Shown here in pieces: positions 10,880 through 52,540 of a stretch of 52,540 nucleotides of DNA (its first letter is position 1; each line of letters starts with the position of its first letter). Both the position numbers and the translations under genes were made by a program. This DNA is from an uncultured Nitratifractor sp. GTDB taxonomy: Bacteria; Campylobacterota; Campylobacteria; Campylobacterales; Sulfurovaceae. Under the pieces are notes generated by a model. The model saw only the letters and a program-made list of their open reading frames with translations, searched no databases and had not been told where the DNA came from. The stretch lies in NCBI GenBank assembly GCA_913054475.1, contig CAJXJF010000003.1, forward strand, positions 1-52,540, in the 5' to 3' direction.

Positions 10880-12730
10880 ATGGCTGCAAAGACAAAGAAA
10901 AAAGATATCTTCACCAGAATCGAAGAAGAGTTGGACAAGATCAAAAAAGGTGGAATGGTAACCTTCGAGAATCTTGCCAAAGAGTTCGACAAGGCACCCA
11001 CTGCGGCACAGGGCAAAAAGATAAAAAAGATGGCGGACGAAAAAGATATAGAGGTAGTATCGGCATCCGAATATGCCAAATATCTGACCGTCCAGGAAGA
11101 GCAGAAGAGAGAAGCCACCCGCAAAAGACTCAGCGAAAGCGAACTCGAAGAGGAGTTCGATATCACGAAGGAGAAGGAGCTTCTGGAGTGGAGCCGCTCC
11201 GATTCACCGGTGAGAATGTATCTCAGGGAGATGGGGAAGATTCCGCTGCTGACCAAAGAGGAAGAGATAGAGTTGAGCAAGCAGATCGAGGAGGGTGAAG
11301 ATATCATCATCGACGCCATCTGCTCGGTTCCCTATCTGATAGACTATATACTCAACTACAAGGAGCCTCTGCTCAACAGAGAGAGGAGGGTCAAGGAGCT
11401 CTTCAAAAGCTTCGAGGATAGCGGAAGTGACGACGAAGATGGCGAGCTGGACGAAGCCGACTCCAAAAACCGCAAGGCCGACAAACGGGTAACGCAGGTG
11501 ATAGAGAGTTTCAAGGCGCTCGAAAAGGCCAAAAAAGACTGGATGAAAGAGCGCAACAAAATGTTCAGAATGCAGGAGGAGGGAGCCGACGAGGAGAGTA
11601 TCTTCCACGAAAGACTCAAAGTGGCCTTCAGAAAAGACACTCTGAAAAACGCGCTCCTCAATCTCGGACCCACCAGCAAACTGATCAACGAACTGGTAAA
11701 GGCGATGGAGACTGCTCTCAAAAGCGACGACGGTTTCGAAAAGGAGCTCAAGAGGCTGGAGTATCGACTGCAGCTCTTCAACGACCAGCTCAGAGCCAAC
11801 CATAAGAAGATACTGGACAATATCATCAATATGAGCAAAGAGGATATCGCTGCCGCCGTTCCCGAAACGACCATGGTCAGCACATATGTACAGATAAAGA
11901 AACTCTTCGAAACCAGAGAGGCGAGCAAAAACAGTTTCGATCTGCCTCCCGAAAAGCTGGAGGAGATTCTCAATCAGATAAACATCGGCAAAGCCAAAAG
12001 CGAAAAGGCCAAAACGAGAATGGCGAAATCCAACCTGCGTCTCGTAGTATCCATAGCCAAGAGATATACCAACAGAGGATTGCCCTTTCTCGACCTCATA
12101 CAGGAGGGCAATATAGGGCTAATGAAGGCTGTGGACAAGTTCGAGTATCAGAAGGGATACAAATTCTCCACATACGCCACATGGTGGATAAGACAGGCTA
12201 TCAGCCGGGCCATAGCCGATCAGGCCAGGACCATCAGGATCCCCATCCACATGATAGAGACGATAAACAGAATAAACAAAATCACGCGAAAATATCTTCA
12301 GGAGACGGGTGTCGAGCCCGATACGGAGACTATCGCCAAAGAGGTGGGGCTCAGTGAAGACAAGGTGAAAAATGTCATCAAAATCACCAAAGAGCCTGTC
12401 AGCCTCGAAGCTCCGGTGGGTGACGAAGAGGATGGCCGTTTCGGCGACTTCATCCCGGACAATAGCTCCGTCAGCCCCACCGAGTCCGTAATGAACGACG
12501 ACCTGACCGAACAGATAGACGAAGTGCTCGGTCAGCTCAACGAGAGAGAGCAGGCCGTTATCAAGATGCGTTTCGGTCTGCTCGAAGACAAGAGCGACAG
12601 AACGCTCGAAGAGATAGGCAAAGAGCTCAATGTGACCAGAGAGAGGGTCAGGCAGATAGAGAGCAGCGCCATCAAAAAGCTCAAACATCCCAAAGTCGGA
12701 CGCAAGCTCAAAAACTATATAGAAGAGTGA
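10880..12730 (+). CDS. rpoD: RNA polymerase sigma factor RpoD (sigma-70)
   Basis: [75 protein letters not shown]. Confidence 0.98.
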
Positions 12731-12732
12731 TT

Positions 12733-13491
12733 ATGGCCAAAGTAGCTCATCCGCGCTTCTTCGCTCTGATAATCGGGACCGAGATACTCAACCGCAGAAG
12801 GGAGGATAGCCACTTCCTCTTCCTGAGCGAATTTCTTCTATCGAGAGGATACAGACTCTCCGGCAGTTTCGTGATAGAGGACGACCCCGCATTGATAGAG
12901 AAGAGTTTGAGCTTTCTTGCGAATATCGACAACAGTGTCGTCTTCAGTTTCGGCGGTATAGGCTCCACACCGGATGACCATACCCGCATATCGGCCGCAA
13001 GAGCACTCGAAGACGGCAAACTCTATCTACACGACGAAGCCGCCCGAATCATAGAGGATAGACTCGGCGAAAAGGCCTACCCCTACCCTATCCGGATGGC
13101 GCAACTTCCCAAAGGCGCCAAACTTCTGCACAACCCCGTAAACAGGATGCCGGCTTTCTATCTGAAAGAACGCTTCTTCTTCATGCCGGGCTTTCCACAG
13201 ATGAGCCACCCTATGGTGGAGTGGATAATGGATAATATATACAGCGAAAAAAGCGAACCGCAATTCAGAAAAACCCTTCAGGCACTATGCAGAGAGAGTG
13301 AGTTGATAGATATCATGGAGGCTCTCCCGAAAAATGTAGAGCTCTCATCTCTACCCAAACTCTATAGCGACGGCCCCAGAGTCGTGATATCCGTCTCTTC
13401 CAAAGATAAAAAGGCTGCAGAAGATGCCTATCTTCGCTTCACGAAAGCGCTCGAAGAGAGGGGTATAAACTACAGCCCGATCGAAGAGTGA
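12733..13491 (+). CDS. competence/damage-inducible CinA-like / molybdopterin-binding domain protein
   Basis: ALIIGTEILNRRREDSH; FSFGGIGSTPDDHTR; LPKGAKLLHNPV; FMPGFPQMSHPM. Confidence 0.8.
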   Translation: MAKVAHPRFFALIIGTEILNRRREDSHFLFLSEFLLSRGYRLSGSFVIEDDPALIEKSLSFLANIDNSVVFSFGGIGSTPDDHTRISAARALEDGKLYLHDEAARIIEDRLGEKAYPYPIRMAQLPKGAKLLHNPVNRMPAFYLKERFFFMPGFPQMSHPMVEWIMDNIYSEKSEPQFRKTLQALCRESELIDIMEALPKNVELSSLPKLYSDGPRVVISVSSKDKKAAEDAYLRFTKALEERGINYSPIEE

Positions 13492-13499
13492 ATATTTCG

Positions 13500-13905
13500 A
13501 TTTACCATTGCAAGAGCCTCCTCCACTACTGTGGGCAGATGGACTTCTTCTTTTCAAAGCCAAAGCGATAGTTGAGCTGTATGAACTTCGATGTCGATTC
13601 CGCGACTGAAGTCGCGGCCCCAAGATAGAAACAACTCTTCCGGGGCGGCGACTTTAGTCGCCGTAAAAACCTTATATGCAGTGTAATTTTGATTTCGCCA
13701 TCACGATATGAAGTCCGAAAATCGAAGGAAGTGGAAGCTTCAGCCTCACACAGATGGTAGATGGACTTCTACTCTCCAAAGCGATAGTTGAGCTGTATGG
13801 ACTTCAGTGTCGATTCCGCGACTTCAGTCGCCGAAAAAACCTTATATAGCGGTATGGCTTTTGTTTCGCTGTAATGTCAAGGAATCCGAATAAGAGGATA
13901 AGATC
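13500..13905 (+). repeat. modular palindromic repeat array (left copy): A-P1-spacer-P2-B-A-hybrid palindrome-B
   Basis: Palindromes CCGCGACTGAAGTCGCGG (13600-13617, followed by CCCC), CGGCGACTTTAGTCGCCG (13646-13663, preceded by GGGG) and CCGCGACTTCAGTCGCCG (13816-13833). The surrounding text is duplicated (gcgatagttgagctgtatg.acttc..tgtcgattccgcgact; aaaaaccttatat). Confidence 0.85.
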
Positions 13906-14069
13906 TATATCGAAGTTCTCCAAGAGATGCATCAGGCTTTTTGGATTGTGCCGATAATATTTTATACTTCCAAATAGCTGTGAATTTGAAGTTTGTGACG
14001 GTAGCAACAATTTCACCTACACCGCACTTTGGATATAATTGCGAAAATTTTCAATCAAGGATTAGTGAT

Positions 14070-14807
14070 ATGGGAAGAGCGTTCGAATATAGAAAAGCCG
14101 CCAAACTCAAAAGATGGGGAACGATGTCCAGAGTCTTTCCCAAACTTGGTCGCATCATAACCATAGCGGCCAAAGAGGGTGGTCCAGACCCAGATATGAA
14201 CCCGAAACTTCGAACCGCGATTTTGAATGCCAAAGCTCAGAATATGCCCAAGGACAATATAGAAGCGGCCATAAAACGGGCTATTGGTAAAGAGGCCGCC
14301 GATATCAAAGAGATAGCCTACGAGGCTAAAGGGCCGTATGGGACACTGATGTATATCGAGTGTGCCACCGACAACCCCACCCGTACGGTAGCCAATGTCA
14401 AGGCGACACTCGTCAGAAACGGCGGAGAGCTCCTTACAAGCGGTTCTTTGGACTTCATGTTCGACAGAAAGGCCGTATTCGAATTCGACAAGAGAGACGA
14501 CCTCGACCTCGAAGAGCTCGAACTTGAACTCATCGACTACGGTCTCGAAGAGATAGAAGAGGACAGAATTCCCCGGGAGAATGGAGAAGATAGGGAGATT
14601 GTCCGAATATATGGAGAGTTCAAATCTTTCGGAGAGCTCAACAAGGCTCTCGAAGATAGAGGTATAGAGATCAAAAAGGCCCAATTGCAGCGTATCCCCA
14701 ATACGCCGCTGGAGTTGAGCGAAGAGCGGATGGACGAGGTGAGTATCCTTATAGACAAACTCGAAGATGACGACGATGTGCAGGTGGTATATACCAATCT
14801 CGCTTGA
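14070..14807 (+). CDS. YebC/PmpR family DNA-binding regulatory protein
   Basis: [65 protein letters not shown] at 14070. Confidence 0.95.
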
Positions 14808-52237: not shown

Positions 52238-52540
52238 AAGCAAAAATTCATCTACCCAAGTGCGACTTCAGTCGCGGATTCAACACAAAAGTTCATACAA
52301 GCTTACCATCGCCATGGATTATAAAAGTCCATCTACTTGGGGCCGCGACTTTAGTCGCGGAATTGTGTCGGAGTCCATAAAACTCGCCATCGAAATGGAA
52401 AGCAGAAGTCCATTTACCATCTATGCGTGGCTGAAGTTTCCGACTTCTTTGGGTTTCGGACTCTATCTCGCAATGGCTAAATTTGAACCCTGCTCTATGC
52501 AAGGTTCTATCGGCGACTAAAGTCGCCGCCCCTGTGAGAG
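52238..52540 (-). repeat. modular palindromic repeat array (right copy, inverted relative to the left copy, cut by window edge)
   Basis: Palindromes tGCGACTTCAGTCGCgg (52261-52277), GGGG+CCGCGACTTTAGTCGCGG (52339-52360), CGGCGACTAAAGTCGCCG+CCCC (52511-52532). The reverse complement of 52361-52510 aligns to 13664-13815 (agtccgaaa..., cttcagcc.c.ca.agatggta.atggacttct). Confidence 0.85.

Follow-up and report, generated by a model that had tools for sequence, protein, structure and literature searches.

REP-type palindromes are known to be mobilized by Y1 transposases of the RAYT/TnpA-REP kind. TnpA-REP enzymes act on single-stranded REP DNA, read the foot tetranucleotide and cut nearby (PMC8266576), and REPINs have been proposed as the unit that is moved by RAYTs (PMC3116915). 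In published surveys, most REPs are GTAG- or CGTC-tagged and RAYTs read GT[AG]G; both GTAG and CGTC REPs have been reported in a Sulfurovum strain (PMC3733652). Another type of Y1 transposase, TIRYT, combines a long protein with a GGGGWSAS repeat and has no REPs (PMC3733652; subclass 2.1 in PMC6006769). Some TIRYTs have TIR repeats that make up dispersed families (PMC3733652). Here, we analyzed a stretch of 52,540 nucleotides from an uncultured Nitratifractor sp., referred to as the window, that carries palindromes with a GGGG foot. The window is contig 3 of a genome assembly with 87 contigs, a size of 1.74 Mb and 99.94% completeness.

Palindrome arrays in the window and throughout the genome

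Direct reading of the left array confirmed the coordinates and sequences given in the preliminary description: palindromes lie at 13602, 13648 and 13818, two GGGG feet face each other across 20 bp, and modules A and B are duplicated in tandem (Table 1). On the plus strand, the order is A(-), REP I(-), 20-bp spacer, REP II(+), B(+), REP IV(+), A(-), hybrid I::II palindrome, B(+). Two plus-strand genes border the array (13533-13890), one for a MoCF_biosynth-domain protein (12727-13491) and the other of the YebC/TACO1 type (14070-14807). Members of the spacer family to which 13622-13641 belongs are present at other loci as well. The claim of three 18-bp palindromes holds as to their number, but the third (13818-13831) has no foot, joins a type I left arm (gattCC) to a type II right arm (CGaaaaaacc) and is a perfect palindrome only in its 14-bp core. 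It looks as if a deletion had removed the 46 bp that separate two palindromes facing each other. This hybrid nature is not part of the preliminary description of the array, nor are the type IV palindrome inside the "body" (13727-13749) and a second cluster (52262-52540), the elements of which (52262-52532) continue into the right end of the contig.

Table 1. Elements of the two palindrome clusters in the window
Element	Position	Strand	Basis
Linker module A, first copy	13533..13601	-	nhmmer, profile of 41 type I downstream arms
REP type I, CCGCGACTGAAGTCGCGG + foot CCCC (GGGG on minus strand)	13600..13621	-	Sequence; pattern with foot
20-bp spacer aagatagaaacaactcttcc between two facing feet	13622..13641	.	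Sequence; spacer list
REP type II, foot GGGG + CGGCGACTTTAGTCGCCG	13642..13663	+	Sequence; pattern with foot
Linker module B, first copy	13662..13726	+	nhmmer, profile of 30 type II downstream arms
Palindrome resembling REP type IV, GGAAGTGGAAGCTTCAGCCTC (degenerate version of GGAGTCGGAGGCTTCAGCCCC)	13727..13749	+	Pattern scan
Linker module A, second copy	13753..13817	-	nhmmer
Hybrid palindrome lacking a foot (left arm of type I, right arm of type II)	13818..13831	.	Sequence, nhmmer
Linker module B, second copy	13832..13890	+	nhmmer
Palindrome with degenerate foot (cccaagt)	52262..52275	+	Pattern scan of window
Linker A, second cluster	52276..52338	+	nhmmer
REP type I with foot, GGGGCCGCGACTTTAGTCGCGG	52339..52360	+	Sequence; pattern with foot
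Linker A, second cluster	52361..52425	+	nhmmer
Linker B, second cluster	52448..52512	-	nhmmer
REP type II with foot, CGGCGACTAAAGTCGCCGCCCC, at contig end	52511..52532	-	Sequence; pattern with foot

When up to two mismatches were allowed, the core matched seven times in the window (six of these exactly) versus 1.95 expected matches, and none of 100 shuffles reached seven. The <I spacer II> pair folded as single-stranded DNA with -22.7 kcal/mol (z -5.7). Readings of the array as an RNA family or a terminator were dropped, as the Rfam scan of the window returned one tRNA and no other match and no terminator-like site was found in 13450-14100. A search for an empty site at the window locus yielded none, and synteny is not conserved within the genus.

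Genome-wide, GCGACTNNAGTCGC is present in 85 exact copies compared with 0 for the reversed control pattern, and the foot-bearing pattern GGGGCSGCGACTNNAGTCGC with at most two mismatches has 84 sites (control, 0), so copies are not confined to the window. The 85 copies are a lower bound because arrays are clipped at contig ends: by our own count, 32 of the 174 contig ends lie less than 500 bp from a palindrome. On the same grounds, the assembly appears to have been fragmented by the repeat itself. The foot is GGGG, rarely GGAG, and the loop bases read from the foot are TT (46) or TC (28), together 74 of 75 sites. As foot and loop are linked in this way, the palindrome has a direction. The sole AA loop is the opposite face of a double-foot palindrome on contig 10 (L025, position 39686; GGGGCC-GCGACTAAAGTCGC-CGCCCC), a single instance of a form described for REPs of another RAYT subclass. 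The location of the repeats relative to genes was assessed for 81 copies with flanks, solely in the stretches around the repeats. Just two of the 81 fell inside open reading frames of at least 200 aa, which cover 65% of the examined DNA (binomial p ~1e-33), and eight inside those of at least 120 aa, covering 79%.

Within arrays, the succession of elements is strict: I> A (III>) <IV <B <II spacer I> etc. The two main forms, I (GGGGCC..GG) and II (GGGGCG..CG), are roughly equally frequent; linker A comes after type I and linker B after type II. Both linker profiles recur across the genome, which bears out the earlier statement that the flanking bodies are conserved. That body is, however, not one passive cargo, since part of it consists of the further REP-like palindromes III (GGAGCA-GGGACTTCAGTCCC) and IV (GGAGTCG-GAGGCTTCAGCCCC), which match REPs of other RAYT lineages. 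GGGACTNNAGTCCC occurs seven times in this genome. At four loci (L068, L074, L032, L047), a feet-out pair of III and IV, GGAGCA-GGGACTTCAGTCCC ... GAGGCTTCAGCC-GACTCC, is nested within I>..<II units. Among close pairs, 20 are feet-in and six feet-out. Feet-in I/II pairs are spaced by 46-47 bp (11 cases) or 49-56 bp (nine cases), most feet-out pairs lie 142-171 bp from each other and enclose A, IV and B, and direct I-A-I repeats have a period of 82-83 bp. A search of 59 further family genomes found neither linker A nor linker B, the only matches being short ones around palindromes. With genome-wide copies, an extragenic location, a short palindrome with a conserved, one-sided unpaired foot, inverted pairs and alternating REPs in mosaics with linker motifs, the family has the features of REPs and BIMEs that had been proposed for it.

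Y1 genes of the genome and of its relatives

The preliminary description had connected the repeats with RAYT/Y1 transposases and suggested looking for a resident gene flanked by the same palindrome. A PF01797 search of the window's genome returned a single gene (contig 64, 9029-9361) within a 255-aa protein. This gene is flanked by the inverted repeat GGGGTCAGGTGAATGTAATC / GATTACGTTCACCTGACCTC (GGGGTCAGG), which is unrelated to the REP GGGGCSGCGACTTYAGTCGC beyond GGGG, and the 2.9-kb locus around it has no GCGACT palindrome, even with two mismatches. On account of its flanks, it was rejected as the cognate transposase, and the REPs are not copies of the inverted repeats of a resident Y1 gene. 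Orthologs (54-73% identical) are present in the same-genus genomes G001, G007 and G010, which hold 0-1 palindromes. With its long protein, GGGGWSAS repeat and lack of adjoining REPs, the gene looks like a TIRYT. Short copies in tandem (GGGGTCAAAGTCTA; GACACCTCTATC) form runs behind the inverted repeats of TIRYT genes at two loci of relatives (L106 and L088). A profile of the REP-flanked RAYT clade found only the contig 64 gene and no clade member in the window's genome. A RAYT lying within the arrays could be missing from the assembly, because it is split into 87 contigs with many ends in the repeat.

The proposed connection does stand for other Sulfurovaceae. The same core is abundant in some genomes of the family and present in 0-1 copies in most others; named relatives among the genomes compared are for the most part MAGs of Sulfurovum and Nitratifractor. 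Their close pairs are directed feet outward in all 14 classifiable cases, at 20-43 bp, which is the REPIN layout, with feet GGGG/GGAG/GGAA and loops TT/TC. Among these Sulfurovaceae, same-core REPs are present on either side of Y1 (RAYT) transposases of about 180 aa. In the Sulfurovum MAG S010_maxbin2_scaf2bin.057 (G137; JALSUP010000133.1, ~23.8-24.3 kb), a Y1 gene has REP pairs of GCGACTTCAGTCGC with a GGGG foot on either side. The open reading frame of this gene reads through REP sequence at the N-terminus, and its end leaves the frame of its homologs. A second RAYT of the same MAG likewise lies between GCGACT palindromes, and the two cluster together with a support of 94/94 in a tree of Y1 proteins; this tree is partly resolved and is not taken as showing a single origin of the REP-flanked clade. 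Other clade members are bracketed by GGGACTNNAGTCCC (G052, G119), by GGAAGTG-G[CA]GACTTCAGTCCC (G043, G060) or by GGA[GA]TCGGAGGCTT[CT]AGCCCC (G140). REP IV of the window's genome, with five exact copies there, is an exact 21-base match to the copy beside the G140 Y1 gene, and a single loop base distinguishes one copy of REP III from a REP bracketing the G052 Y1 gene.

The closed genome G011 from the same genus has 14 GCGACTTYAGTCGC palindromes and no strong match to the profile of the REP-flanked RAYT clade. Seven equal-scoring Y1_Tnp matches in 143-aa frames (IS200 type) were seen in the complete sequence G011:C1 next to its 14 GCGACT palindromes. Two groups of Y1 candidates were rejected. 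Neither the fetched flanks of ~172-aa Y1 proteins of relatives (L185-L189, L167, L180) nor the fetched stretches around Y1 genes of an Opitutaceae MAG (L162, L169, L177, L181-L184) contained a G.GACT..AGTC.C palindrome. The Opitutaceae MAG Nm470_bin120, named as belonging to a different phylum, has many copies of GGGGCGGCGACTTTAGTCGCCG (L111, L117, L123, L137, L141, L149), which is identical to the 22-mer of REP II in the genome of the window, through either convergence or transfer.

Origin of the family and alternative readings

We consider it probable that the family is an orphan composite BIME, in which REPs I and II with a GGGG/GGAG foot, REPs III and IV, and linkers A and B of this genome only were tandemly amplified between genes and the RAYTs were lost. 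In such a scenario, an ancestral Y1 (RAYT/TnpA-REP) enzyme would, during replication, have bound the foot and the hairpin on single-stranded DNA and would have cut and moved REP pairs, whereby REPs of different RAYT lineages may have come to adjoin one another. Through slippage or recombination, tandem units with periods of 82-83, 168-171 and about 190-216 bp would then have expanded or contracted, and footless and double-foot hybrids would have arisen where DNA between facing palindromes was deleted. Later loss of the RAYTs would have left an orphan population still able to form stable hairpins between genes. Tandem growth and hybrids are read from the sequence, and slippage, recombination or RAYT-mediated deletion would be their cause. 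By analogy with the relatives, the REPs of the window's genome were presumably mobile, and a RAYT of the REP-flanked clade probably once moved them. Several points count against an orphan composite BIME: a RAYT could be missing from the 87-contig assembly with its many ends in the repeat; feet-in pairs are commonest here, opposite to the feet-out REPINs of the relatives (14 of 14); linkers A and B have no known counterpart among the 59 other family genomes searched; and the repeats have a GGGG foot, whereas characterized RAYTs read GT[AG]G.

The moving unit could also be not a REP pair but the whole A-<I-spacer-II>-B block (~190 bp, feet inward), MITE-like and with A and B as its ends. This arrangement is found at several loci with unique DNA on both sides (L032, L040, L049, L067), and feet-in pairs, the commonest pairs, cluster at 46-47 or 54-56 bp. 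Still, A and B have ragged outer ends that vary between loci, L028 has a lone feet-out I>..<II doublet that lacks both linkers and relatives have feet-out pairs only, and we regard a MITE-like block as rather unlikely.

Somewhat more doubtful is a chimera of REPs from at least three RAYT lineages with its own linkers A/B that became a self-standing replicating unit after the loss of all three RAYTs, with the GGGG-flanked TIRYT or another enzyme acting on it in trans. If this were true, REP populations could outlive and change their transposase. We assign a still smaller chance to a mosaic that remains mobile and is served in trans specifically by the 255-aa contig 64 TIRYT. No Y1 gene other than the one for this protein was found in the genome of the window, the terminal inverted repeat of this gene also starts with GGGG as do the REPs, and dispersed TIR families exist for some TIRYTs, but the absence of any relation past GGGG, the lack of the palindrome in the 2.9-kb locus of the gene and the 0-1 palindromes in genomes with orthologs all speak against it. 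Finally, a selected chromosomal site (regulator operator, nucleoid/gyrase site or transcript-end hairpin) instead of a mobile repeat is very improbable: the copies are intergenic, six of 16 analyzable clusters lie between convergent genes compared with five of 47 adjacent gene pairs in the window, and stable hairpins are predicted, yet the left array lacks a terminator-like site and an Rfam match, most family genomes hold 0-1 copies, the copies carry long linkers confined to the window's genome and matching REPs bracket Y1 transposases in relatives. A secondary use of the REPs by the host is possible.

The Sulfurovaceae GGGG/GGAG REPs adjoin Y1 enzymes of one clade and their stems differ in few bases (GCGACT, GGGACT, GAGGCT), so that nature offers a series in which the recognition of foot and stem by RAYTs can be tested. 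REP populations that apparently lack a transposase of their own are available in the window's genome and in G011, a closed genome, and bear on whether REPs persist, decay or are taken over after RAYT loss.

Comparison with described REP systems

With BIMEs and REPs of E. coli (Y, Z1, Z2; PMC2817692, PMC6006769), the family shares foot and hairpin, extragenic location, alternating orientation, more than one cognate REP form (I and II like Y and Z) and REP/linker mosaics. It differs in its GGGG/GGAG foot instead of GTAG, in the long linkers A and B, in a mosaic that mixes REPs matching several RAYT lineages and in that searches of the genome yielded no cognate RAYT. REPINs (PMC3116915) are likewise inverted, hairpin-capable REP doublets that also occur in tandem clusters including flanking sequence, and the relatives have compact feet-out doublets as the repeated unit. 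In the window's genome, in contrast, the commonest close pair is feet-in at 46-56 bp and feet-out pairs are mostly 142-171 bp apart. A RAYT-served REPIN does not apply to this genome because a cognate RAYT flanked by the REP was not found there; G137 has one.

Tagged palindromes, HH/TT dimers, conserved or variable spacers and an intergenic location are shared with the GTAG/CGTC super-families (PMC3733652). The tag, being neither GTAG nor CGTC, places the family outside both and agrees with the earlier view of the GGGG foot as non-standard. Moreover, CGTC REPs are without a transposase, whereas relatives of the window family adjoin one. The contig 64 gene resembles TIRYT or subclass 2.1 (PMC3733652, PMC6006769) in its long C-terminal extension, the repeat start GGGGTCAG, which fits GGGGWSAS, and the lack of an adjoining REP; unlike the REP family, its inverted repeat has no relation to GCGACT palindromes. 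The REP-flanked Y1 proteins of the relatives resemble TnpA-REP subclass 2.4 (PMC6006769) in their NH[VLI]H and YIxNN motifs and length (~180-190 aa), in the REP read through in the RAYT open reading frame of G137 and in the occurrence of double-foot REPs. Their W motif is not WQ and their foot is not GT[AG]G, and the resemblance is not a formal subclass assignment. What is new compared with all these systems is the GGGG/GGAG tag and the fusion of REPs of several RAYT lineages in one mosaic.
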